Positions 7,854 to 64,000 of a stretch of DNA of 64,000 bases are shown here, one piece after another (position 1 is the stretch's first letter; every line of letters starts with the position of its first letter). The position numbers and the translations under genes are program-made. Below the pieces are notes generated by a model that saw only the letters and a list, made by a program, of their open reading frames with translations, did not search any database and had not been told where the DNA came from. This stretch comes from Microbacterium sp. 1S1 (GTDB taxonomy: Bacteria > Actinomycetota > Actinomycetes > Actinomycetales > Microbacteriaceae): positions 3,286,001 through 3,350,000 of the forward strand of contig NZ_CP043430.1 of NCBI RefSeq assembly GCF_008271365.1, in the 5' to 3' direction.

Positions 7854-8363
7854 ATGAACATCGCGATCCATCGGGTCACCGTCGCCAGCCCCGAGATGGC
7901 GGACTTCGTCGGCGCACACCACGCCGAGATGCAGGGCACCGCTCCGCCGGAGAGCCAGCACGCCCTCACGCTCGACCGGCTGCTCACTCCGCGCGTCCGC
8001 TTCTTCACGGGAGTCGTCGAGGGACGGATCGCCGCGACGGGAGCGCTCGCGGTCGTCGAGGAGGGGCACGAGGAGCTCAAGTCGATGCGCACGGACCCGG
8101 CGCTCCGCGGGCGCGGGTTCGGACGGGCGATGCTGGACCACCTTCTCGACGATGCGGCCGGGCGCGGCGTCCGGCGGGTCTCGCTGGAGACAGGACGCGA
8201 CCCCTTCTTCGCTCCCGCCCGGGCGATGTACGCCGCGGCCGGGTTCCGGGAGGGTCCGCCGTTCGGCACCTACCTCCCCGATCCGCACAGCGCGTTCCTG
8301 ACGACGCTCCTTCCCGCGTCGTCCGAGGCCACGACACGATCCCACGCGATAATGAACGGATGA
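7854..8363 (+). CDS. GNAT-family N-acetyltransferase
   Basis: A 169-residue acetyltransferase of the GNAT fold. The acetyl-CoA pyrophosphate loop is visible as LRGRGFGRAML (residues about 83-93), preceded by the beta-strand HEELKSMRTDP and followed by the YAAAGF segment typical of the C-terminal half. The substrate cannot be predicted. The ATG at 7854 is preferred over an upstream frame that runs into the promoter region of tRNA-Gln. It overlaps the next gene (marR-like) by 4 bp, suggesting the two are co-expressed. Confidence 0.88.
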   Translation: MNIAIHRVTVASPEMADFVGAHHAEMQGTAPPESQHALTLDRLLTPRVRFFTGVVEGRIAATGALAVVEEGHEELKSMRTDPALRGRGFGRAMLDHLLDDAAGRGVRRVSLETGRDPFFAPARAMYAAAGFREGPPFGTYLPDPHSAFLTTLLPASSEATTRSHAIMNG

Positions 8364-8854
8364 GCGAGGCGGATGAGGTCGACCGGATCGTCGGGGCATG
8401 GAACACCCAGCGCCCTGACCTCGACTTCTCTCCGCTCGAGGTGCTGTCCCGGATGGACCGTCTCTCCCGGCACCTGGACCGCGCCCGCCGTGAGGTGTTC
8501 CGCCGCAGCGACCTGGAGCCGTGGGAGTGGGATGTCCTCTCGGCGCTCCGCCGAGCGGGGTCGCCGTTCCAGCTCTCGCCGAAGCAGCTCCTCCAGCAGA
8601 CCCTCGTGTCGAGCGGCACTATGACCAACCGCATCGACCGCCTGGTCGGCCGTCGCTTCGTGCGCCGAGAAGCGGATCCGGCGGACGGCCGCAGCGTGCT
8701 CGTGACTCTGACCGACGACGGCCGGGTCCGGGTGGACGCCGCGATCACCCGACTCGTCGACGCCGAGGCCGACCTGCTGCGCGCTCTCTCCCGCTCCGAC
8801 CGGGACCGGCTGGCCGCGCTGCTGCGCAAACTGAGCCTCAGTTTCGACACCTGA
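8360..8854 (+). CDS. MarR-family transcriptional regulator
   Basis: A 164-residue dimeric winged-helix regulator. After an N-terminal helix (DLDFSPLEVLSRMDRLSRHLD) come the HTH and wing: PKQLLQQTLVSSGTMTNRIDRLVGRRFVRREADPADGRSVLVTLTDDG, the last part being the highly conserved MarR wing. Translationally coupled (ATGA) to the GNAT gene, so the two probably work together, for example in detoxifying a ligand sensed by this protein. No obvious operator palindrome was found in front of the pair. Confidence 0.93.
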   Translation: MSEADEVDRIVGAWNTQRPDLDFSPLEVLSRMDRLSRHLDRARREVFRRSDLEPWEWDVLSALRRAGSPFQLSPKQLLQQTLVSSGTMTNRIDRLVGRRFVRREADPADGRSVLVTLTDDGRVRVDAAITRLVDAEADLLRALSRSDRDRLAALLRKLSLSFDT

Positions 8855-18944: not shown

Positions 18945-18973
18945 ATGTCGGTGGTCGGTGCTGGACTGACGTC

Positions 18974-20380
18974 ATGCCCGCACTGCTCGATGCGACCGAC
19001 TCCCAGATGGCGACGCTCGCCGATCTGGTGGCGGGGCTGGAAGCGGCGGAGAAGACACTGAGCAGCATGCACGCGGCTCGCGACGGGCTTCTCGCGATGG
19101 CGGGGCGCCTTGCGGTGGAGATCGCCCGCCAGGCCCGGCATCCGGACGGCGGCGACATGGCGATCCGCACGGTCGCCGCGGAGATCGGAGCGGCACAGCG
19201 GGTCAGCGACCGCACGATCGAGCGGCGGATGTCCCATGCCTCCTGGCTGGTCGAGCGGTTCCCCGCCGTCTGGGAGGCCCAGGGCGCCGGGCGGATCAGC
19301 GCCGCACACGCGCGGCTGATCGTGGCGGCGGGTGCTCATCTCGATGACCCGGACGACCGCTCGCGCTTCGCGACGGAGGCGATCGAGGTGGCCGCTGCGG
19401 AGTCTCCGAACCGGATACGCCGACTCGTGCGCCGACTGGCCGATCGCTTCCAGGAACGCTCGCTCGTCGAGCGACACCGCGACGCCAGGGAGCTGCGCCG
19501 GGTTTGGGTGACCGATCTGGATGACGGCATGGCTGAGCTCGGTGCGCGTGGACCGGCTGCCCTCGTGCACGGCATGTACGACCGGCTCTCCCAGATGGCG
19601 CATGCCGTGCGGGAGGAGAACGCGCGGGCTCGTCGTCGGGAGACGGAGGAGAGCGCCCTCGACGATAGGACCGTGGATCAGCTCCGCGCCGATCTGCTGA
19701 CCGACCTCGTCCTGACGGGCGCTCCGGCCGGGCACGACACGGAAGAAGGACTGCTCTCGGAGCTTCGGGCGCGCGTCGAGGTCACGGTGCCGGTGCTGAC
19801 GCTGATGCACGGCGAGCGGAAGGAGGCAGCGGACGGCACCCCGATCCTCCCCGCGGAGCTGGACGGGGTGATCCCGATCGACCCGGTCACGGCTCGCCGA
19901 CTGGCCGGCGCGGCGAGCGGCTGGGATCGGGTGCTCACCCATCCGATCAGCGGCGCACTGCTGGCCGTCGACCGATACCGCCCGGGCGAGGGTCTCCGCC
20001 GGCATCTGCGGGCCCGCGATCAACGATGCCGCTTCCCCGGCTGCGGCCTCACGCCGCGGAAGTGCGACCTCGACCACAATCACGACGCGGCGCTCGGCGG
20101 AGAGACCGTGCACGACGACCTCGCGACCTTTTGCCGCCGGCATCACATGCTCAAGCACCACTCCCCCTGGCACGTCAAGCAGGGGCCAGGCGGTGTTCTG
20201 GAATGGACGAGCCCCACCGGCCGGACCTCCATCGACCGACCGCCGCCTCCGCACACCGTGACCTTCGCGCAAGAACCCTCCTGGTCTCCCACCGACAGCC
20301 CTAGAGTGGAGGGCATGTCGAGCCCCGAATCAGACAGGTCGGGGGCTGCCGGTCACACCGTCAGCCCCGTGAACCACTGA
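18974..20380 (+). CDS. DUF222 and HNH endonuclease-domain protein (13E12-type)
   Basis: A 468-residue protein. The N-terminal two thirds match DUF222 (helical, with RVSDRTIERRMSHASWL and GRISAAHARLIV). The C-terminal third is an HNH nuclease: CRFPGCG, then CDLDHNHDAALGG, then CRRHHMLKHHSPW. The cysteines are the structural zinc ligands and DHNH the metal-catalytic residues. The family is abundant in actinobacteria and its cellular role is poorly known. The ATG at 18974 is the first in-frame start that avoids an upstream stop, and a LexA-like site lies in front. It ends near the cmx-like gene but probably has its own promoter. Confidence 0.9.
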   Translation: MPALLDATDSQMATLADLVAGLEAAEKTLSSMHAARDGLLAMAGRLAVEIARQARHPDGGDMAIRTVAAEIGAAQRVSDRTIERRMSHASWLVERFPAVWEAQGAGRISAAHARLIVAAGAHLDDPDDRSRFATEAIEVAAAESPNRIRRLVRRLADRFQERSLVERHRDARELRRVWVTDLDDGMAELGARGPAALVHGMYDRLSQMAHAVREENARARRRETEESALDDRTVDQLRADLLTDLVLTGAPAGHDTEEGLLSELRARVEVTVPVLTLMHGERKEAADGTPILPAELDGVIPIDPVTARRLAGAASGWDRVLTHPISGALLAVDRYRPGEGLRRHLRARDQRCRFPGCGLTPRKCDLDHNHDAALGGETVHDDLATFCRRHHMLKHHSPWHVKQGPGGVLEWTSPTGRTSIDRPPPPHTVTFAQEPSWSPTDSPRVEGMSSPESDRSGAAGHTVSPVNH

Positions 20381-40558: not shown

Positions 40559-41659
40559 TCAGGACGGGCGGGTGGAGCTCTGCCGGAGCAGGATCTGGAG
40601 AGGGAGGCGCGTGGTGCGCGGCGGAGCCTCCGGCTGCTCCAGTCGGCGGGCCAGAACCTGCACGGCGGCGCGTCCCAGGTCGATCATCGGCTGACGGATC
40701 GTGGTCAACGGCGGCGAGGCCAGGGTCGCGGCCTCGATGCCGTCGAACCCGGTGACGAGCACGTCGTCCGGCACCCGCACCCCGGCACTGCGGAACACGT
40801 CCATGGCGCCGAGCGCCATCTGGTCATTGGCGGCGATCAGCGCGGCGGGCACCCCCTGGCGAGCGAGCTCCTCCCCTGCCCGACGCCCGGAGGCTCTCGT
40901 GAAGTCGCCCCGCAGCACGCGCACCGCTGCCCGATCACGACCCGCCGCGGCGAGCGCGGTCGACACACCGTCCCACCGCTGCTCCGCGTCTGGCGAGTCG
41001 GCCGGCCCGGCGAGGAAGACGATCTCCCCGTCCCCGACCTGCGACAGCACATGGCGGGTGAGCTCCCCCATCGCCTCGGCGTTGCTCACCGTGACATGGT
41101 CGTAGGCATCGCCCCGCGACGGTCCGGACAGCACGACCACCGGGATGCGCCGCCCCAGTCGGGCGAGCACCTCGTCCGGCACGCTGCGCGCGAGCACCAT
41201 GAGCCCGTCCACCCGGCCGGCCATGTCGCGGACGGTCGAGCGATCGGGGTCGTCGCGACCGACACCCACCATGAGCACGAAGCCTTGCTTCCACGCCTCC
41301 AGCTCGGCGCCGCGGAGGACCTCGTCGAGGAACAGCATCGAGGAGTGTCCCGTCCCCGCCTCGTCCTCCTCGGACACCACGGTGAACGGCGGGCGGGCTG
41401 CGGCCGACAGCACGTCGAGCGGCGGAGCGTCCTCCGCTGCGTCGAAGCCGGGGAAGTACAGCCCGAGCACTCCCGTCCGGCGCTCGGCGAGCCCCCGGGC
41501 GCTGCCGCTCGGGACGTAGCCCAGCGCGGAGACCGCGTCGAGCACCCGCTCGCGGGTCACCGGACGGACGGCCTCCGGCGAGCGCAGCACGCGCGACACG
41601 GTCGCGATCGATACGCCGGCGCGGGCGGCGACGTCGTACACGGTCGCGGCCTTGCTCAC
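40559..41659 (-). CDS. LacI-family regulator of the glycoside operon
   Basis: A 366-residue LacI-family repressor: HTH YDVAARAGVSIATVSRVLRSPEAVRPVTRERV, then the effector-binding core (GVLGLYFPGF, LIAANDQMALGAMD, VTGFDGIEAATLASPPLTTIRQP). GTG start follows AAAGGAG at 7 bp. It lies directly upstream of the transporter operon on the same strand; the palindrome at 40485 is the likely target. The 110-nt leader contains a hexamer repeat. Confidence 0.93.
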   Translation of the reverse strand: MSKAATVYDVAARAGVSIATVSRVLRSPEAVRPVTRERVLDAVSALGYVPSGSARGLAERRTGVLGLYFPGFDAAEDAPPLDVLSAAARPPFTVVSEEDEAGTGHSSMLFLDEVLRGAELEAWKQGFVLMVGVGRDDPDRSTVRDMAGRVDGLMVLARSVPDEVLARLGRRIPVVVLSGPSRGDAYDHVTVSNAEAMGELTRHVLSQVGDGEIVFLAGPADSPDAEQRWDGVSTALAAAGRDRAAVRVLRGDFTRASGRRAGEELARQGVPAALIAANDQMALGAMDVFRSAGVRVPDDVLVTGFDGIEAATLASPPLTTIRQPMIDLGRAAVQVLARRLEQPEAPPRTTRLPLQILLRQSSTRPS

Positions 41660-41675
41660 GGGCGGCTCCTTTCGG

Positions 41676-41778
41676 TCGCGGTTCTGGTTCTGGCCCGGGT
41701 TCTGGTTCTGGTTCTGGGCCTGGTTCTCGTTCGGGACCTGGTTCTGGTCCCGGTCCTGGTCCTGGTCCTGGTCCTGTC
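41676..41778. repeat. Degenerate hexamer repeat (GGTTCT/GGTCCT) in the lacI leader
   Basis: On the plus strand GGTTCT units are followed by GGTCCT units for about 100 bp, ending 17 bp before the regulator's start. On the mRNA this is AGAACC/AGGACC repeated, a leader without U. A -10 candidate TACGCT (41779-41784, minus strand) precedes it. Confidence 0.75.
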
Positions 41779-48403: not shown

Positions 48404-50206
48404 TCACCGTGCGCGGGACACCTCGGCCGGATCACTCACCGGAAGGCGGCACACGAAGGCACGACAGTCGTAGGCGCGCTCTGGCCCCGCCGCCTTACCC
48501 GCGAACAGCTCGAACCCCGCGGCGGCGAACGCGGCGGCCTGGGCGGGGGTGACGACCGCGACGACCTCGGCATCGGCTCCGCGGGCGGCGGCGGCGAGTG
48601 CTCCGCCGGACTCCTCCGTCACCACGACGAGCTGACGGGGCGCGGCGGCGAGACCGGCGGCGACCCGCAGCAGGCTGCCGTGGGCGAAGGGCTGCGCGAG
48701 CGCCCGGGAGGCGAGTGCCTCCACCCGCTCGGCCGCCGCCGCGCGGTAGCGGTCCCCCGCCCCGAGACGCCAGGCGGTGAGCGCGGCCTGCGCGACTGCC
48801 GCCGAGTCGGAGGGAAGGTCGCCATCGGTGTGGTCGGGCGAGGCGGCGATGCCCTGCGCGCGGAGCAGCGGGTCGTCCCCCGCGGCGCCGTCCAGCACCT
48901 CGTCGAGGAGGTCGCGACCCGTGACCGCCGGAGCGACGTCGCCCGTCGCTGCCGCGAGGGCGAACAGGCCGTCGGCGAGGAGGGCGAGGTCGGCCGGGGT
49001 CGCCACGGCGGCGGAGGACCGCCCGTCCAGTGACGCGCGGACGAGAGCGCCGTCCGGGCCGCGATTGGTGCCGAGGACGGCAGCGGCGGCGTCTGCGGCC
49101 GCGGCGATCCACGCGTCCTCGCCGAGCGCGGCGCCGGCCCGAGCGAGCGCGGCGATCGCGAGGCCGTTCCAGCCGGTGATCACCTTGCCGTCCACCGCCG
49201 GCGGCTCCAGGTCGGCGCGCTCCGCGACCGGGCGGAGGTAGTAGCCGCCCTCGCTGCGGATGCCGTCGATCCATGACTCGGAGTCCTGGGCGGCCCCGAA
49301 GCCGCCGCCCTCCCGCCGGAGCGTGCCGAGCAGGAAGCGGGCGATGCCGCGGGCCGTCTCCTCGTCCCCGGCGTCGAGGGCGACCTCGAGCAGCTGGGCG
49401 TTGTCGGTCAGCATGCGCTCGTAGTGCGGCACCGTCCAGTCCCGCCTGGTCGCGTAGCGGAAGAACCCGCCGTCGGCATCACGCAGATCCGAGTCCGCCA
49501 TCGCCGCGAGCGCGCGCCCTGCTGCGGCCGCCGCCTCCGGGGCGGTCTCGCGGATGAGGGGCTCCTGCAGGAATCGCAGGGTCGTGGCCACCGGGAACTT
49601 CGGAGCGCCGCCGAAGCCGCCGAACTCGGTGTCCTCCCTGGCGGCCAGCCCGCGGGCGGCCTCGGCGAGCGCCGCGGAGTCAGGGACGTCTGACCCTGAG
49701 GTCGCTGCCGCTTCGGCGAGCGCCGCGGTCACCGCGTCCGCAGACTCCTCGGCCTGCGCGCGGCGCGTCGTCCACGCCTCCCGCACGGCGGCCAGCACGT
49801 CGCGGAACGCGGGCATCGTCGGCCGTGCCTCGGGCGGCCAGTAGGTCCCCGCGTAGAACGCGCGGCCGGTGGGCGTGGTGAACACCGTCAGTGGCCAGCC
49901 CAGGTTCTGCGTGAACGCCGACGCGGCGGCCATGTAGGCGCCGTCGACGTGCGGATGCTCCTCGCGGTCGATCTTGACCGCCACGAACCCTTCGTTGATG
50001 CGCGCGGCGGTCTCCGGATCGGCGAACGACTCCCTCGCCATCACATGGCACCAGTGGCACGTGGAGTAGCCGATCGAGATCAGCATCGGGACGTCGCGAC
50101 GGCGGGCCTCGGCGAACGCCTCCTCCCCCCACGGATACCAGTCGACGGGGTTGTCGGCGTGCGCCCGCAGGTACGGACTGAGGGTGTCGGCGAGACGGTT
50201 CGTCAT
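48404..50206 (-). CDS. YyaL-like thioredoxin-domain protein (DUF255)
   Basis: A 600-residue cytosolic protein. The N-terminal part is a thioredoxin fold with TCHWCHVM (Cys50 and Cys53) preceded by the conserved [20 protein letters not shown]. The C-terminal part is an (alpha/alpha)6-barrel-like domain with [10 protein letters not shown] and [13 protein letters not shown]. Conserved in most bacteria, human SSP411 relative; biochemical role unclear. ATG 50206 is 6 nt after TAGCGT. Confidence 0.95.
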
Positions 50207-50212
50207 GTCCCC

Positions 50213-57088: not shown

Positions 57089-58033
57089 ATGACCCGCGCG
57101 ATCGTCTACACCGAGTTCGGATCCCCCGCCGTCCTGCACCTCATGGAGGTGCCGGACCCTGTGCCCGTCCGCGGCGAGGCGCTCGTGCGCATCGAGGCGG
57201 CCGGCGCCAACCCCATCGACGCGAAGCTCCGCAGCGGCAAGCGTCCCTCTGCGCCGATCACCGAGCCGCGTCCGGTCGGGTTCGACGGCGCCGGGGTGAT
57301 CGAGGTGCTGGGCGAGGGCGTGGACGGGTTGGAGGTCGGCGACCGCGTCGCGATCCGTGACACGCTCGGCACGTACGCCTCCGCCCTCGCGGTCGAGGCC
57401 GACAAGCTCGTGAAGCTCCCGGACGCCGTCACCGCGGCCGAGGGGGCAGCGATCGGCATCCCCGCTGGAACCGCCTATCAGTCCCTCCGCTCGCTCGGCG
57501 TGACGGCCGAGGACGTGCTTCTCGTCCACGCGGGTTCGGGTGCGGTCGGGCAGGCCGCCGTGCAGTTCGCGGTCGCCGGGGGCGCGACGGTGATCGCCAC
57601 CGCGAGCCCCGCCCGGCACGACCAGCTCCGTGAGCTCGGCGCGATCCCCGTGGCCTACGGCGACGGCCTGCTTCACCGCGTCCGCGAGGCGGCCCCCTCC
57701 CCCGTGACCGTCGTCCTGGACTGCGCGGGCACTGACGAGGCGATCGAGACCTCCCTCGCCCTGGTTGCCGACCGCGACCGCATCGCGACCATCGTCCGCG
57801 GTCCCGACGCGGCCGACTTCGGCATCCGGGCGTTCTCCGGAGGCTCCCCCAAGCCGCTCACGCCGCAGGAGCTGGCGTGGCGCGCCGAAGCGCTGCAGAA
57901 GACGGTCGACCTGCTGGCGGCCGGCGACTTCACGATCGAGCTCGGTCCGGAGCTGCCTCTCGCCGAGGCGGCGCGGGCCCATGAGCTCATGGAGGCCGGC
58001 GCCGCCTCGGGGAAGATCATCCTCGTCCCCTGA
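57089..58033 (+). CDS. NADP-dependent quinone oxidoreductase (zinc-free MDR)
   Basis: A 314-residue medium-chain dehydrogenase/reductase of the QOR type. VGFDGAGVIEVLGEGVDGLEVGDRVAI is the GroES-like core, and LLVHAGSGAVGQAAVQFAVAGGATVIATAS the Rossmann motif. No zinc ligands are seen. It should reduce quinones or enones with NADPH. Its 3' end is 8 bp from the convergent AhpD-like gene. Confidence 0.93.
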   Translation: MTRAIVYTEFGSPAVLHLMEVPDPVPVRGEALVRIEAAGANPIDAKLRSGKRPSAPITEPRPVGFDGAGVIEVLGEGVDGLEVGDRVAIRDTLGTYASALAVEADKLVKLPDAVTAAEGAAIGIPAGTAYQSLRSLGVTAEDVLLVHAGSGAVGQAAVQFAVAGGATVIATASPARHDQLRELGAIPVAYGDGLLHRVREAAPSPVTVVLDCAGTDEAIETSLALVADRDRIATIVRGPDAADFGIRAFSGGSPKPLTPQELAWRAEALQKTVDLLAAGDFTIELGPELPLAEAARAHELMEAGAASGKIILVP

Positions 58034-58041
58034 CCGCGAGG

Positions 58042-58650
58042 TCAGGCGGGAGCGACGGGCCGGCCGAGCGAGAGCATCAGCCGGTTCGCCCAGTTGAAGA
58101 AGGCCGCGCCGTGCACGACATCCGCGATCTCGAGGTCGTCCAGTCCGGCCGCACGGAGGCGCGCGATGTGCTCGGGACCGAACGCGCGGGGCGTATCGGT
58201 CAGCGCGACCGCGGCGGCCACGATCGCGTTCCAGCGCTCCCCGAGGTCCGCGTCCACGCCCTCAGCCAGGAGGGCGTCGACGTCCTCCGGTCGCTTGACG
58301 TGGTGCGCCGCGAACCGGGAGTGCACCGACGCGCAGAAGACGCAGCCGTTGCGGCGGGAGGCGGCCGTGGCCGCGAGCTCCCGCTCGGCGCGCGGCAGCC
58401 CCTCCGCGGTGTTGTAGAAGATGTCCTTGTCGACGAGGGTGCGGGCGCGCAGCACCTCCGGGTCGCGGGCGAGCAGCCGGAAGTACTCGTTCTTCGCCCG
58501 GGCGGCGTCGACGAGGCCGTCGAGGTGACGCGGGGTGAGATCCTCCTCCGCCAGCGGCGCGAGGTGCGGCGTCCAGCCGACCTCGGCGCGGGTGAAGGCG
58601 TCGGGATAGGGGGCGTCGTCGTGCCGGAGCACGGTGTCGGCGGCGGTCAT
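58042..58650 (-). CDS. Alkylhydroperoxidase (AhpD)-domain protein
   Basis: A 202-residue carboxymuconolactone-decarboxylase/AhpD-fold protein. The redox motif GCVFCASVH has Cys103, Cys106 and His110 in the AhpD arrangement. It ends the LLM/ABC operon and its start overlaps the CMD gene by 4 bp. It resembles the Avi_7169-type peroxidase-domain family that accompanies this transporter (from memory). It could remove peroxide released by the monooxygenase. Confidence 0.88.
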   Translation of the reverse strand: MTAADTVLRHDDAPYPDAFTRAEVGWTPHLAPLAEEDLTPRHLDGLVDAARAKNEYFRLLARDPEVLRARTLVDKDIFYNTAEGLPRAERELAATAASRRNGCVFCASVHSRFAAHHVKRPEDVDALLAEGVDADLGERWNAIVAAAVALTDTPRAFGPEHIARLRAAGLDDLEIADVVHGAAFFNWANRLMLSLGRPVAPA

Positions 58651-59282
58651 GCGGCCTCCTCGTCGGTGTCGGTGTCGGTGTCTGTGGCGGTGGCGGTCAG
58701 CCCGGCGTCCTGGAGCACCCGCAGGCCGGTGACGACCCGCTGTTGGAAGGCGAGGAACGACACGAGCTGCGACAGCGTGACGATGCCGTCCGTCGACCAG
58801 CCGGCGTCGTGCAGGCGACCGAGGTCGCCGCCGGATGCCTCGCGGGGACGGAACACCAGCAGGTGCGTGTGCGCGAGAGCCGCCGCGAGACGCTCCCCCA
58901 GGGTCGCCGACGCCGCCTCGTCCGGCACGTACCGCGCGCCGTCGGTGCTCTCGGCCTCCAGTCCGCGTTCGGTGTAGGCGCCGAACGGTCCGGTGGTCGC
59001 GGCGGCCGCTGCCTCCCGGGCGACGATCACGGCGCGCTCCGGGTCGACCTCGCGGGCCCTCCCGGCGTAGAACTCCGCCGTGGGGTCGTCGGCACCGGCG
59101 AGCGCGGTCGCGAACGCCGCGATGAGCGCGCGCTCCGCGAGCGAGACGTGCGCCGCGGAGACCGGGTGGAAGAGCGCGTCGAAGCTCGCCTGGAGCTGCT
59201 CCCTGGTCACGGGACGGCGACGACGCAGCGCATCCAGCTCCGGCGTCACCCCCGTCAGCTGGTCGACGATATCGGCGGTCAT
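58647..59282 (-). CDS. CMD-domain protein lacking the CxxC motif
   Basis: A 211-residue helical protein of the carboxymuconolactone-decarboxylase fold (Avi_7170-like, from memory). Unlike its neighbour it has no cysteine pair, so it is likely a non-catalytic partner or binds a ligand. It carries FLAFQQRVVTGLRVL at its C-terminal helix and a low-complexity tail of alternating Thr-Asp. Overlaps both neighbouring genes by 4 bp. Confidence 0.8.
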   Translation of the reverse strand: MTADIVDQLTGVTPELDALRRRRPVTREQLQASFDALFHPVSAAHVSLAERALIAAFATALAGADDPTAEFYAGRAREVDPERAVIVAREAAAAATTGPFGAYTERGLEAESTDGARYVPDEAASATLGERLAAALAHTHLLVFRPREASGGDLGRLHDAGWSTDGIVTLSQLVSFLAFQQRVVTGLRVLQDAGLTATATDTDTDTDEEAA

Positions 59283-60349
59283 GCGTTCTCCTTCACGGTG
59301 GGGGTAGTCGTGGACGTGCGGGTGGTCTCGGGGTCGGGCGGGGTCAGCGCGTAGCCGAGGGCCGGAGCGACCTCGGTCGCGAACAGCTCGATCGACCGCA
59401 GGACGTGAGCGTGCGGCGCGTCGACCGAGTGCACCTGGAACGCCACTTCGGTCGCGCGGCGCAGGGTCGTGTCGGCGGCGAGCGAGGCGGCGACCTCCTC
59501 GGGGGTGCCCAGATGCGTGTCGAGCGCGACGATGAGATCGTCGAGGTCGTCTCCGGGGATCGTCTGACCCTGCCGGCGGAAGCCCTCGGCCGCACGGCGC
59601 AGACCGACTTCGGCGAACCGCAGCGCCTCGGCACGGTCGTCCGCCACGAACACGGTGCGGGAGGCGGTGATCCGCGGCGTCGCGCCGGTGGGCAGCGCGT
59701 CGAGGTAGGCGTCGATGATGGGGTCCTGCAGAGCGGACAGCGGCGCGTGCAGGCGGCCGTCGGGGCGAGGTTGCGTGCGGGACAGCAGCAGCCCGTGGCC
59801 GTGGATGCCCGCCCGATGACCGCCGGGGGCCGAGAACGTCGCCTGCCAGATCCGCGCGGCCAGCGACCCCGCGTCCGGATACAGCGTGTTCCCCGCACCG
59901 ATGTCCCGGCCTGCGAGAGCGTCGAGCAGGGCGCCGAGCTTGCGGTCGTAGGTGGGCCCCTTGTCGCGCACGTCCTCGCCGAAGGGAGCGAAGGATGACG
60001 GGGTGCCGCCGCTGCCGAGCCCGAGGTCGATCCGGCCGTCCGCGAGCAGGTCGGCCACCACCGCGTCCTCGGCCACGCGAACCGGGTCCTCGAGGGGCAG
60101 CGTGATGATCCCGGTGCCCAGCCGGATCCGTGCCGTGCGCGCCGCCGCGTGCGCGAGGAAGACGAGCGGCGAGGGCAGCCCGCCTTCCGCCGCTCGGAAG
60201 TGATGCTGCGCCACCCAGGCCCTTCCCACCCCGTGTCGTTCGGCATGCTGGATCTGCGCCAGCGCGAGGCGGTAGCGGTCGGCCGGGGACGCGTCGTCGA
60301 GGAGCCGGGTGAAGAACGCGACGGTGGGGCGGGGAGCGGTGGCACTCAT
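59279..60349 (-). CDS. Luciferase-like flavin-dependent monooxygenase
   Basis: A 356-residue LLM-class TIM-barrel oxygenase using reduced FMN. Family segments: VAFFTRLLDDASPADRYRLALAQIQHAERHG, RAWVAQHHFR, RIRLGTGIITLPLEDPVRVAEDAVVADLLADGRIDLGLGSGG and SAPGGHRAGIHGHG. It resembles the KPN_01858-type subgroup that is linked to an ABC importer. It starts with ATG overlapping the ATPase stop. The substrate would be the molecule brought in by the transporter; its nature is unknown. Confidence 0.92.
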   Translation of the reverse strand: MSATAPRPTVAFFTRLLDDASPADRYRLALAQIQHAERHGVGRAWVAQHHFRAAEGGLPSPLVFLAHAAARTARIRLGTGIITLPLEDPVRVAEDAVVADLLADGRIDLGLGSGGTPSSFAPFGEDVRDKGPTYDRKLGALLDALAGRDIGAGNTLYPDAGSLAARIWQATFSAPGGHRAGIHGHGLLLSRTQPRPDGRLHAPLSALQDPIIDAYLDALPTGATPRITASRTVFVADDRAEALRFAEVGLRRAAEGFRRQGQTIPGDDLDDLIVALDTHLGTPEEVAASLAADTTLRRATEVAFQVHSVDAPHAHVLRSIELFATEVAPALGYALTPPDPETTRTSTTTPTVKENA

Positions 60350-61991
60350 GCAGTGATCTCCGTTCGGCCGGGAACCGCGGCCAGCAGCTCCCGGGTCTTC
60401 TCGTGCTGCGGATCGTGGAACAGTTCCTCGGTCGGCCCGTCCTCCACGACGCGCCCGCGGTGCATCACCGAGACGGTGTGGCTGATGCGGCGCACCACGG
60501 CGAGGTCGTGCGAGATGAAGAGGTAGGTGAGTCCGAGCTCGGCCTGGAGCGCGGAGAGCAGTTCGAGGATGCGCGCCTGCACCGTCACGTCCAGCGCCGA
60601 CACGGCCTCGTCGAGCACGAGGATTTCGGGGTCGACGGCGAGCGCTCGCGCGATCGCGACCCGTTGCCGCTGTCCGCCCGAGAGCTCACCCGGCGTGCGG
60701 CGGGCGACGTCCGCGGGCAGCGCCACGCGTTCGAGCAGCGCGACCGCGCGGTCACGCCGCTCGGACCGGCCACCGATCCGGAAGTTGTGCAGCGGCTCGG
60801 CCACGATGTCGGCGATCTGCTGCCGCGGGTCGAGGGAGGCGAACGGGTTCTGGTACACGAGCTGGATGCGGCGGCGCAGCGCCCGCAGTCGCGCTCCCTC
60901 GACGGCCGTGGCATCCTCCCCCGCGAGCTCCACCGTCCCGGCATCAGGACGGAGGAAACGCGTGACCAGTCGCGCTGTCGTGGACTTGCCCGATCCGGAC
61001 TCGCCGACCAGCGCATGGGTCGTGCCCCGCCGCACCCGGAAGGAGACGTCGTCGACCGCCCGGAAGCGCTCGCGTCCCGCCACCCGGAAGTCCTTGACGA
61101 GGCCCGCGGCCACGATCTCGTAGGGCTTCTCGGCGGCCACCGCCGCGGCGTCACGGAGGAACGGCGGCACGTCCGGGCGCCGGAAGCCGGTCGTGAAGGC
61201 GGGCGCGTCGGCGAGGAGCTGCCGCGTGTACGGGTCCTCCGGCTCCGCGAGCACCTGCGCACTCGGTCCCTGCTCCACGATCCGGCCGTCCTTCAGCACC
61301 GCGATCCGCGCCGCCCGGTCCGCGGCGACGCCGAGGTCGTGCGTCACGAGCAGGATGCTCGTGCCCTCCTCGCGCTGCAGTTCGTCCAGCAGGTCGAGCA
61401 CCCGACGCTGCACCGTGGCGTCGAGGGCGCTCGTGGGCTCGTCGGCGATGAGCAGCCGCGGACGGAGGGCGATCGCGGTCGCGATGAGGACCCGCTGCCG
61501 CATGCCGCCGGAGAGCTCGTGCGGATACTGGCGAGCCCGCAGCTCGGGGTCGTCGAGTCCGACCCGGTCGAGCAGCTCCCGCACCCGGGCCTGACGGGAC
61601 CGCCGGTCGCGATACCCATGCAGGCGCAGCACCTCCGCGACCTGCACGCCGACGGGGCGCACCGGGTCGAGCGATGTCGTCGGGTCCTGCGGCACCAGTC
61701 CGATCTCCGACCCGCGGATGCCGCGGAGCGCACGCTCGGACCAACCGGAGATGTCGAGGTCGCCGAGTCGGACGCGGCCGCCCTCGACCCGTCCGCCCTC
61801 CGGCAGGAGGCCGAGGAGAGCGTGGGCCGTGGTGGACTTGCCGGAGCCCGACTCGCCGACCAGGGCGAGGGTCTCCCCCTCGGCGATGGTGAAGGAGACG
61901 CCGTGCACGACCTCGCGGCCGGCGTACGAGACCCGCAGGTCCGTCGCGGTGAGGACGGAGGGGACGGGGCCGGAGGGGTGGCCAGTGTCAT
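60346..61991 (-). pseudogene. Oligopeptide-type double ABC ATPase, 5' frameshift
   Basis: Two ATPase domains are intact: [41 protein letters not shown], then GESGSGKSTTARLV, LSGGQRQRVAIARAL, ILVLDEAVSALD. The best start, ATG 61991 with a strong GGAAGGAG 6 nt away, is in a different frame (+1) from the domain. In the domain frame the first strand reads VLTATDLRVSYAGREVVHGVSF but has no start codon; the first usable GTG (61908) would drop it. One base missing between about 61955 and 61988 would restore a 548-residue protein. Either a real frameshift or a sequence error. Confidence 0.8.
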
Positions 61992-62056
61992 CGCGAGCTC
62001 CTTCCGAGGTGGTGGCTGATCGAGATCGCCACGGGCGAGGACGTGCGCTCGATCAT
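61988..62056 (-). CDS. 22-codon mini-ORF created by duplication
   Basis: MIERTSSPVAISISHHLGRS followed by SR and stop. Its ATG overlaps the permease stop by 4 bp and its stop overlaps the ATPase ATG by 4 bp. The last 12 residues repeat the permease C terminus (ISHRLGRSSR), so it is probably a by-product of the 65-bp duplication rather than a functional peptide. It keeps translational coupling across the gap. Confidence 0.4.
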   Translation of the reverse strand: MIERTSSPVAISISHHLGRSSR

Positions 62057-62085
62057 CGCGAGCTCCTTCCGAGGCGGTGGCTGAT
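61988..62085 (-). repeat. 33-bp direct repeat, period 65 bp, carrying an SD and start codon
   Basis: Positions 61988-62020 and 62053-62085 match at 32 of 33 bases (one C/T change). Each copy encodes the end of the permease (LGRSSR) and carries GGAAGGAG then ATGA. Duplication of the end of permease C and the start signal of the ATPase is the simplest origin. Confidence 0.88.
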
Positions 62086-62947
62086 GCGATTGGCGCTGAG
62101 CACGACGGCGACGACCACGAGACCGGGGAGCGCCGTGAGCCACCAGGCGGTCGCGATGTAGTTGCGTCCCTCGGCTATCAGCAACCCCCATTCGGGGGTG
62201 GGCGGCGGGGCCCCGTAGCCGAGGAACCCGAGGGTGGAGATGGCGAGGATCGCCGTACCGAACTGCAGCGCGGCGAGCGCGATGATCGGGGTGAGCGCGT
62301 TCGGGAGCACGTGCCGGCGCAGGACAGCGGCGAAGGTGCCGCCGCTGCCGAAGGCCGCCTCGACGTACTCTGTGCGCCGCACGCGCGCCACCTCCGCCCG
62401 CATGAGCCGGGCGAACGCGGCGACGCTGCCCAGACCGACGGCGATCGCCGCGTTCACCGTGCCGAATCCGAGCAGGATGATGACGGAGAGCGACAGCAGC
62501 AGCCCGGGGATCGCCAGCAGCACGTCGACGATCCGCATCAGCACGTCGTCCACGACGCCGCCGGTCGCGCCGGCGACGGCCCCGAGGAGCGTCCCCAGCG
62601 CGAGGCCGACCGTCACGGCGATGAGCGCCCCCGACAGGGAGTGCACCGCGCCGTGCACGACCCGGCCGAAGAGGTCGCGGCCGAGGGCGTCGGTCCCCGA
62701 ACCAGTGCGCCGCGCTCGGTGGCAGGAGCTTGTCGGCGGGCACGCCCGTCAGCGGATCGCCCGGGGCGAAGACCGCGGGGCTCACCGCCCAGAGCACTGC
62801 CACCGCGACGACCGCGAGCGCCAGGTACAAACCCCAGGCACGCGAGCGCCCTCGCGGCCGAGATGCGGAGTGGGGTGCCGGGGCGGGCGGCGCGGGCAGC
62901 GCACCGGGCGTCTCGATCGACGTCTCCGCGATCACGGGAGCGGTCAT
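62053..62947 (-). pseudogene. ABC transporter permease (DppC type), frameshifted
   Basis: The N-terminal part (ATG 62947, MTAPVIAETSIETPG... to HWFG, about 83 residues) is in one frame and the remainder (GTDALGRDLFGRVVHGAVHS and onward to LGRSSR) in another. The family motif GTDxLGRDxFxR spans the break. Removing one base from the CCCC run at 62695-62698 (GGGG on the coding strand) restores a continuous 297-residue permease. The total length 895 nt is one more than a multiple of three. Its start overlaps permease B by 4 bp. Confidence 0.85.
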
Positions 62948-63924
62948 GCGGGCACCTCCTGGGCGGTGGGGTGGACGGGGCGCGACCGGGCGACGCGCGC
63001 CGACCGACGCTGCCGCGGATCGATGAGCGGCGTGGCGAGGTCGACGGCGAAGCTGATGAGGACGAATCCCAGGGCCGACAGCAGCACGACCCCCTGCAGC
63101 ACCGGGATGTCCTGGTTCGCGACGGCCTGCTCCGTGAGGCGCCCGATGCCGGTGCGGCCGAAGACCGTCTCGGTGACCACCGCACCTCCGACGAGCTCCC
63201 CGAACAGGACCCCCGCGATGGTGAGCGTCGGGACGGCGGCGTTGCGGGCGACCGATCGCGTGAGCACCCACGCCGGCGGCGCGCCCTTCGCCCGCACCAC
63301 GGTCACGAACGGCTGCGCCTGCACCCGGTCGATGGATCGGACCAGGACCTGCGCGAGAGGCGCGGAGATCGGCACGGCGAGGGTGAGGACGGGCAGGATG
63401 AGCCCGCTGACGGGGTCGGCTCCCACGATCGGCACCCAGCCGAGTCCGAACGAGAACACCTGGATGAGGAGGATGCCGAGCCAGAACACCGGGACCGCGA
63501 CGAACAGTCCCGGCACCTGCCGCAGACCGTCCCGCAGCCAGACGAACGGCGCGAGCGCGGAGAGCGCCGCGATCAGCACCGCGAGCACGACGGCGACCAG
63601 GAGCCCGAGCGCCGCGAGCAGCAGCGTGGCGGGCAGCGCTTCGGCGAGCATCGTCCGTACGGGCGTGCCGTACTGGGTCGAGTAGCCGAAGTCGCCCGCC
63701 AGGAAGCCGAGACCCGCGTGCAGGTACTGCTCCCCCCACGGCACGTCGGCACCGTAGGTGGCACGGATGTCGTCGAGCTGCTCCGGCGAGAGCCCCAGGC
63801 TCGGGTCGGAGAACTTGATGAGGATCGCGTCTCCCGGCAGCAGCTGCAGGAGGAAGAACGTCGCCGTGAAGGCCGCGATCAGCACGATCGCGGCCTGCCC
63901 GGCCCGTCGGAGGACGAAGATCAT
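62944..63924 (-). CDS. ABC transporter permease (DppB type)
   Basis: A 326-residue permease with six helices: VLIAAFTATFFLLQLLPGDAIL at the N terminus, and ARNAAVPTLTIAGVLFGELVGGAVVTETVFGRTGIGRL as the coupling region. Full length and in frame, unlike the partner permease. It lies 16 bp after the binding-protein gene. Confidence 0.93.
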   Translation of the reverse strand: MIFVLRRAGQAAIVLIAAFTATFFLLQLLPGDAILIKFSDPSLGLSPEQLDDIRATYGADVPWGEQYLHAGLGFLAGDFGYSTQYGTPVRTMLAEALPATLLLAALGLLVAVVLAVLIAALSALAPFVWLRDGLRQVPGLFVAVPVFWLGILLIQVFSFGLGWVPIVGADPVSGLILPVLTLAVPISAPLAQVLVRSIDRVQAQPFVTVVRAKGAPPAWVLTRSVARNAAVPTLTIAGVLFGELVGGAVVTETVFGRTGIGRLTEQAVANQDIPVLQGVVLLSALGFVLISFAVDLATPLIDPRQRRSARVARSRPVHPTAQEVPA

Positions 63925-63940
63925 GGCGTCACCGCGGCCC

Positions 63941-64000
63941 TCAGTGCTCCGCGAGCCACACGCCGGAGAACGTGGGGCGCCCGACCGACTCGAACGCGAC
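63941..64000 (-). CDS. ABC transporter substrate-binding protein, C-terminal end (partial)
   Basis: The last 19 codons (VAFESVGRPTFSGVWLAEH) and TGA are in the window. Position at the head of the permease operon and the FSGVW ending fit a family-5 substrate-binding protein (KPN_01854-like, from memory). The rest lies beyond the right edge. Confidence 0.65.
   Translation of the reverse strand, partial: VAFESVGRPTFSGVWLAEH

Follow-up and report, generated by a model that had tools for sequence, protein, structure and literature searches.

The 64,000-nucleotide stretch analyzed here (the window) covers positions 3286001 to 3350000 of the single 3.40-Mb contig of Microbacterium sp. 1S1 (NZ_CP043430.1). 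At its end lies an operon on the minus strand that encodes, in order of transcription, a substrate-binding protein, permease B, permease C, a double ATPase, a luciferase-like monooxygenase (LLM2) dependent on flavin mononucleotide (FMN), a carboxymuconolactone decarboxylase-family (CMD) protein, and an AhpD protein (Table 1). DNA past the window end was also read; it includes most of the binding protein gene and a gene for a second luciferase-like monooxygenase, LLM1. The closest named proteins and loci to the operon are from Microbacterium. Here we consider what this combination of an ATP-binding cassette (ABC) importer, flavin oxygenases, and AhpD-like proteins is likely to do.

Four of the operon proteins fall into curated protein families. 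In a search of NCBIfam profiles, the binding protein, which has a lipoprotein-like N terminus with Cys24, matched TIGR04028 (SBP_KPN_01854) with 788.1 bits (curated cutoff, 468.5), and LLM2 matched TIGR04027 (LLM_KPN_01858) with 512.8 bits (cutoff, 412.9). The CMD protein matched TIGR04029 (CMD_Avi_7170) with 168.2 bits (cutoff, 100.75), and the AhpD protein matched TIGR04030 (perox_Avi_7169) with 270.6 bits (cutoff, 233.15). An earlier note on this DNA had named the last three families, and these names were right. It had also placed a binding protein in the operon, which the TIGR04028 match bears out, but just 60 bases of that gene fall inside the window. LLM1 exceeded the cutoff of TIGR03860 (330.9 bits versus 279.7), and its best matches in the PDB were YtnJ/MoxC; LLM2 matched PDB 8K74 (E of 7.7e-113). 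Permease B reached no equivalog cutoff in the NCBIfam search. The ATPase scored over the cutoffs for NikE, NikD, and CntF/CntD, but those scores came from two matched domains, and the names were rejected as a clue to the substrate. As a gene set, the operon is ordinary, made up of catalogued families without an assigned function. The families are named after Klebsiella KPN_01854/01858 and Allorhizobium ampelinum Avi_7169/7170, and the gene order of the window operon, which passes all four cutoffs, matches that on pAtS4e. The window operon differs in having LLM1 directly upstream, a place where pAtS4e lacks it, and in being frame-broken within permease C and at the ATPase start.

The order of the seven genes was described correctly in the earlier note; the 4-base overlaps that it saw almost throughout occur at only four of the six junctions (permease B/permease C, ATPase/LLM2, LLM2/CMD, and CMD/AhpD). 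The binding protein and permease B genes are separated by 16 bases, and permease C and the ATPase by about 60.

Table 1. Features of the operon and of related loci. Positions are those of the window unless preceded by a locus number; L009 is the locus of the window operon.
Feature	Position	Strand	Basis or remark
LLM1, NtaA/DmoA-type monooxygenase, upstream of the binding protein, outside the window	L009:10709-12103		TIGR03860
Substrate-binding protein gene, last 60 bases	63941-64000	-	Whole gene L009:8942-10576, 544 amino acids
Permease B, Opp/Dpp/Nik type, 326 amino acids	62944-63924	-	PF00528 and PF19300
Permease C, frame-broken	62053-62947	-	PF00528 on C-terminal part; frame analysis
33-base direct repeat	61988-62020 and 62053-62085	-	Spans the permease C/ATPase junction; the frame breaks lie on either side
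Duplicated ATPase	60346-61965	-	Two ABC_tran stretches; frame analysis
LLM2, FMN-dependent luciferase-like monooxygenase, 356 amino acids	59279-60349	-	TIGR04027; PDB 8K74
CMD protein, 211 amino acids, AhpD-like fold, no cysteine	58647-59282	-	TIGR04029; fold search
AhpD protein, 202 amino acids, Glu91/Cys103/Cys106/His110	58042-58650	-	TIGR04030
Microbacterium TIGR04027 genes without a TIGR04030 neighbor	L145-L152, L154-L164		Mostly by SfnG or cysK-cysE, without importer/CMD/AhpD (except L159, which has importer and CMD)
Glyoxalase_3 loci	L084, L096, L098, L103, L106, L113, L116, L121, L123		

Conservation was evaluated in the loci of the best 80 of at least 279 LLM2 relatives, five plasmid loci, and the window, which together are not a random sample; 10 of these 86 loci were excluded for short flanks, leaving 76. 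LLM2, CMD, and AhpD (the trio) stand without a complete importer in seven loci, one locus has the importer without CMD and AhpD, and three have neither. The genes of the other 65 (25 organism labels, with the window counted as its own) include the full importer, CMD, and AhpD around LLM2. Among 295 Microbacterium genomes, TIGR04027 was matched at E values up to 1e-60 in 121 and over the cutoff in 117, with 118 genes, and 99 of these genes have an over-cutoff TIGR04030 gene within 3 kb. The earlier note had called the genes one functional unit and had proposed listing their conserved neighbors. The list upholds the tie between importer and oxygenase, which is strongly conserved (65/76), but 19 of the 118 genus TIGR04027 genes are without a TIGR04030 neighbor. 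The four families co-occur in Actinomycetota and in alpha-, beta-, and gammaproteobacteria. The distribution of TIGR04027 is patchy, because only 3 of 296 genomes sampled from the phylum matched, the strain's own genome included, and only its own match exceeded the cutoff.

LLM1 precedes the operon in 14 of 21 Microbacterium CMD-AhpD loci, one of which is that of the window, and clustering also places it near the operon in some other Actinomycetota; LLM1 belongs to the local unit. In Agromyces lapidis, LLM1 and LLM2 are adjacent and are followed by a cysteine desulfurase-like gene; the importer, CMD, and AhpD were not found within 21 kb there. Genes for a Liv-type importer (the branched-chain amino acid class), all below NCBIfam cutoffs, precede the trio in two Rhodospirillales, one Variovorax, and one Microbacterium locus (L108, L115, L121, and L153). 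The Liv type replaces the Dpp type in these loci, and thus importers seem to have been swapped around the enzymes.

The AhpD and CMD proteins are related, and only one of them has a thiol site. Glu91, Cys103, Cys106, and His110 of AhpD, a Glu-CxxC-His set that we take to be catalytic, are kept in 78 of 78 relatives. A CxxC motif occurs in the CMD protein of only 1 of 75 relatives in which it is unfused, and because the CMD protein of the window has no cysteine at all, it is not itself an AhpD-type peroxidase. Profile-profile comparison of CMD with AhpD was weak (probability, 16%); a fold search settled the relation, the CMD protein having an AhpD-like fold. All six Enterobacterales loci among those compared encode CMD and AhpD as a single fusion protein, and therefore the two probably act together.

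Genes of sulfur metabolism were found beside relatives of LLM2. All 19 Microbacterium TIGR04027 genes without an over-cutoff TIGR04030 gene within 3 kb were fetched, and their neighbors were identified with tblastn. The gene for SfnG, the dimethylsulfone monooxygenase, lies upstream on the same strand in 13 of the 19, at a distance of about 1.2 kb in 11, 2.1 kb in one, and 7.3 kb in one. Three others have cysK-cysE divergent from the TIGR04027 gene, one has an SfnG-like LLM alone, and two have none of these; L161 and L163 carry TIGR04027 without SfnG, cysK-cysE, importer, CMD, or AhpD. The four SfnG proteins tested against NCBIfam scored 583 to 589 bits (cutoff, 383), two CysK proteins scored 445 and 442 bits (cutoff, 351), and one CysE scored 237 bits (cutoff, 211). 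Among the 21 CMD-AhpD loci of Microbacterium, none gave an SfnG or cysK match at the same thresholds. A single 10-kb contig (L159) carries SfnG, a gene without an NCBIfam match, a TIGR04028 binding protein (858 bits), a permease, an ATPase, LLM2, and CMD, in that order up to the contig end, and here the operon itself fills the 7.3 kb between SfnG and LLM2.

Sulfur amino acid genes also occur near complete operons. Within 10 kb of LLM2, they were found in 5 of the 19 Microbacterium loci other than the window that have importer and trio: MetY-like genes in L053 and L059, and cbs-like and cystathionine gamma-synthase-like genes in L058, L060, and L061. The gamma-synthase-like protein of L058 scored 624 bits, over its cutoff of 513. 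In 44 proteobacterial records, 30-kb neighborhoods of LLM2 were counted by hand, with the families picked after the neighbors had been seen. SfnB-like genes (over 200 bits) were present in 6 records versus 0.97 expected, NtaA-type LLMs in 6 versus 2.1 expected (7 with the circular Erwinia plasmid joined at its ends), and CysB-family regulators in 2, one adjacent and one about 29 kb away, versus 0.28 expected. With only those two records, a CysB-family regulator was rejected as a general signature of the operon; one such regulator, over its cutoff, stands beside the trio of Variovorax (L045). On an A. ampelinum plasmid (L042:4932-6116, 15396-21484), the operon is flanked by SfnB-like and SsuD-like genes, both below cutoffs, and by genes with a taurine transport annotation.

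Regulation of relatives points in the same direction. In Corynebacterium glutamicum, cg2678, cg2677, cg2675, and cg2674 are given as a periplasmic subunit, a permease, a duplicated ATPase, and a 'putative carboxymuconolactone decarboxylase' and are marked McbR in a table within an excerpt of PMC2807442. A cysR mutant transcribed cg2678-74 less, among genes of the McbR regulon (excerpt of PMC2580772), and the mark R that cg2678 bears in a table of PMC6892785, also an excerpt, is read as McbR repression. These genes are like those of the window in their kinds (periplasmic subunit, permease, duplicated ATPase, and CMD-family protein) and in their neighboring locus numbers. They are unlike the window operon in that TIGR04027 was matched in none of 14 control genomes, C. 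glutamicum included. The control genome of this species exceeds the TIGR04030 cutoff and is among the controls that match TIGR04028 and TIGR04029; one control is over each of the latter two cutoffs, which is not tied to C. glutamicum. The C. glutamicum regulon is independent support, for the importer and AhpD rather than for LLM2. A Klebsiella list of products that rise under iron limitation has KPN_01858 alongside TauC (PMC7194016), a further pointer to sulfur.

A further link runs through Escherichia coli YciW, which has the CMD-AhpD order of the operon within one protein (L127:4981-6108). YciW aligned with the CMD-AhpD fusion of Erwinia at 22% identity over 329 residues (E of 1e-11), and HHalign gave probabilities of 87% for its N-terminal half against the CMD profile and 90% for its C-terminal half against the AhpD profile. 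Unlike the operon proteins, YciW is below the TIGR04029 cutoff and has not kept the CxxC, and neither an importer nor an LLM of these families adjoins its gene. On these comparisons YciW is a distant two-domain relative of CMD-AhpD. According to an excerpt of a review (PMC10821248), a CysB motif precedes yciW, and the mutant is cysteine sensitive.

Sulfur scavenging, in which the importer supplies flavin oxygenases that free sulfur from an organic compound, is the best-supported role for the operon, and we consider it likely. The role is drawn from the gene neighbors and regulation of relatives; the families, their conservation, the thiol site, the fold, and the sulfur gene neighbors come from this analysis. 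The proposal in the earlier note that the operon imports and then oxidizes an unknown nutrient fits this role, and neighbors and regulon narrow the class of nutrient to organic sulfur. The Dpp/Opp-type ABC importer, with its TIGR04028 binding protein, would take up a small molecule that contains organic sulfur, probably as a thioether, sulfoxide, or sulfone, and that has a charged or peptide-like part. LLM2 and LLM1, both predicted to be monooxygenases dependent on reduced FMN (FMNH2), would act on the imported compound. It is possible, although tentative and proposed by analogy, that oxygenation proceeds in two steps, with one LLM oxygenating the sulfur and the other cleaving the C-S bond. 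Cleavage would yield an aldehyde together with either a sulfenic acid or a sulfinate. AhpD, as a CxxC thiol enzyme, would reduce the reactive product, whether sulfenic acid, disulfide, or peroxide, with the cysteine-free CMD protein as its putative structural or substrate-binding partner, and the freed sulfur would enter cysteine and methionine synthesis. We infer the order of these steps, the reaction of each enzyme, and the substrate of AhpD.

The analogy is with the Cmo enzymes of Bacillus subtilis. We take CmoJ to be YtnJ, and an importer is presumably encoded with the Cmo genes. In an excerpt of PMC10863075, CmoO oxidizes the sulfur of (acetylated) S-alkylcysteine, and CmoJ, a YxeK/DszA homologue, splits the C-S bond of the sulfoxide to give an aldehyde and a sulfenic acid that is to be reduced. 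Like CmoO/CmoJ, the operon pairs a flavin monooxygenase of the YtnJ/YxeK/DszA kind with a second one, and a sulfenic acid is the predicted product; unlike the Cmo set, it has AhpD/CMD in place of an acetyltransferase and a deacetylase. By family, LLM1 is a putative enzyme of the CmoJ kind, and by analogy LLM2 would take the CmoO role and AhpD/CMD would be the reductant.

The earlier note assigned AhpD to peroxide cleanup. That is possible given the invariant AhpD site (78/78) and the description of cg2674 as an AhpD reduced through Lpd/SucB/NADH (excerpt of PMC11266056); reduction of sulfenic acid or disulfide fits equally well. One bolder idea, which we regard as rather unlikely, is that CMD and AhpD together form a thiol reductase dedicated to the sulfenic acids, or related products of sulfur oxidation, that the paired flavin monooxygenases make. 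AhpD would then keep the thiol site, the CMD protein would bind the substrate as a pseudoenzyme without cysteine, and E. coli YciW would be a decayed form of the pair that stands alone.

Several points weigh against sulfur scavenging. The eight-gene stretch between LLM1 and AhpD, both included, does not encode a flavin reductase, an acetyltransferase, or a deacetylase, and most proteobacterial operons do not have an adjacent LLM1. A search of the 19 kb surrounding the operon of the window gave no match to SfnG, MetY, CysK, or CysE, and none of the neighbors indicates a particular substrate. Some of the sulfur gene matches near relatives are below their cutoffs: the MetY-like proteins of L053 and L059 (494 and 477 bits versus 495), the cbs-like protein of L058 (462 versus 510), and the Agromyces desulfurase-like protein. 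The 30-kb hand counts were made after the fact, and an NtaA-type, SfnB-like, or CysB-family gene was present in only 9 of the 44 records (10 with the Erwinia plasmid closed). It is also we who infer that cg2674-cg2678 are the TIGR04030 and TIGR04028 members of C. glutamicum.

A further objection comes from the LLM2 tree (midpoint rooted; L080, with a called open reading frame of more than 400 residues, omitted), in which the LLMs linked to SfnG or cysKE group in a clade (support, 88/88) that does not include the window LLM2. The SfnG clusters are like the operon in that TIGR04027 genes of the same genus stand directly behind SfnG and in that L159 joins SfnG to the importer operon. They are unlike the window operon, which has no SfnG match in the surrounding 19 kb and an LLM2 in a separate clade, and therefore function has to be carried over between paralogous clades. 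This objection is softened because L153, a CMD-AhpD locus, falls inside the SfnG/cysKE-linked clade and because L159 joins SfnG with the operon.

An improbable alternative is that the LLMs oxidize a carbon or nitrogen nutrient without sulfur, such as carboxylate-rich oligomers, and that AhpD removes peroxide from uncoupled flavin turnover. The only close solved structure of LLM2 is that of Klebsiella PCX02514 (PDB 8K74), which is reported to oxidize poly(acrylic acid) with NADPH, with a proposed active site of Arg10, Arg125, Ser186, Arg187, and His253 (excerpt of PMC11354265). When these positions are mapped by alignment onto LLM2 relatives, Arg10, Ser186, and Arg187 are kept in 86/86, 86/86, and 85/86, and Arg125 is Arg or Lys in 86/86, but the His253 position is His in only 7/86. 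The substitution of Liv-type for Dpp-type importer genes in some loci would also suit such a nutrient. However, poly(acrylic acid) is man-made and cannot be what these enzymes act on in nature, a chain of about 2000 Da would be bulky for a Dpp-type importer, and the SfnG, cysKE, and sulfur regulon links are left unexplained. The poly(acrylic acid) report also qualifies the statement in the earlier note that these families have no assigned substrate. In excerpts of open PMC papers searched by family, locus, and product names, no substrate of the operon was seen except in that report; with it, the LLM family is not wholly uncharacterized.

It is quite improbable that the operon serves stress defense or detoxification, in which AhpD/CMD would defend against peroxides or electrophiles, the LLM would inactivate a toxic plant or microbial compound, and sulfur control would reflect thiol demand. 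The invariance of the AhpD active-site residues would agree with this, as would the naming of cg2674 as an AhpD tied to NADH via Lpd/SucB (PMC11266056, excerpt), the listing of cg2674-78 in a table of pH-responsive C. glutamicum genes (PMC2807442, excerpt), and the plant origin of many plasmid carriers of the operon, but a dedicated importer and sulfur-uptake neighbors such as SfnG speak against it. Uptake of a metal-chelate or opine-like compound (NikA/CntA-like), which the enzymes would free from its chelator, is highly improbable: NikA is the next best family of the binding protein, whose matches in the PDB also cover NikA and proteins that bind opines, and the Klebsiella LLM KPN_01858 is listed higher without iron (PMC7194016), but the NikA score is far below the cutoff (158 bits versus 393), SfnG/cysKE neighbors point elsewhere, McbR and CysR control sulfur genes, and TauC shares the Klebsiella iron limitation list.

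The importer of this strain looks damaged in the sequence. The earlier note listed permease C among the seven genes; it is split over two frames. Its N-terminal part is in one frame from 62947, and its C-terminal part is in another (62053-62658, 201 amino acids from the first in-frame start). The codon-usage signal switches frame between about 62694 and 62721, and the frame is open across the break point in 19 of 19 relatives compared. The N terminus of the ATPase is cut or out of frame: the coding signal reaches 61965, the first in-frame start is at 61908 (520 amino acids), and the expected start near 61991 falls in a different frame. A coding-frame scan of 60 segments in the window plus 10 kb flagged 9, of which 3 are in permease C/ATPase and 2 are pairs of adjacent genes sharing one frame. 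The last 4 (8316-8851, 18966-20128, 40584-41776, and 48465-50209) have mismatches of 44 to 252 bases at the segment end. Relatives hold intact copies of permease C and the ATPase. The breaks may reflect decay or a sequencing or assembly error, and the importer encoded by this sequence is possibly nonfunctional. With a broken importer, the enzymes may rely on another importer or on an internal substrate. In Paracoccus denitrificans (L043:9857-12004), LLM2-CMD-AhpD is whole and lies downstream of sarcosine oxidase and folate genes, and permease C and the ATPase were found only as pieces.

Other genes recur near the operon. Directly after AhpD lies a convergent quinone oxidoreductase-like gene (window positions 57089-58033), which clustering finds kept in several Microbacterium loci. 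A Glyoxalase_3 (PF13468) gene is in or beside the operon in nine loci of six genera (from clustering, with three proteins tested); it was rejected as a pathway member because no step fits it. Short-chain dehydrogenases near the operon were scattered and were dropped as pathway genes.

The frame breaks are a caution that the strain is possibly without a working importer. NCBI lists the four families as hypothetical equivalogs, and the sulfur link leads to a short growth and enzyme test. If the idea of CMD-AhpD as a thiol reductase were true, it would provide a function for four hypothetical families and for YciW and a new role for the AhpD fold. The sulfur link itself ties these families to the unexplained YciW and calls into question poly(acrylic acid) activity as the natural function.

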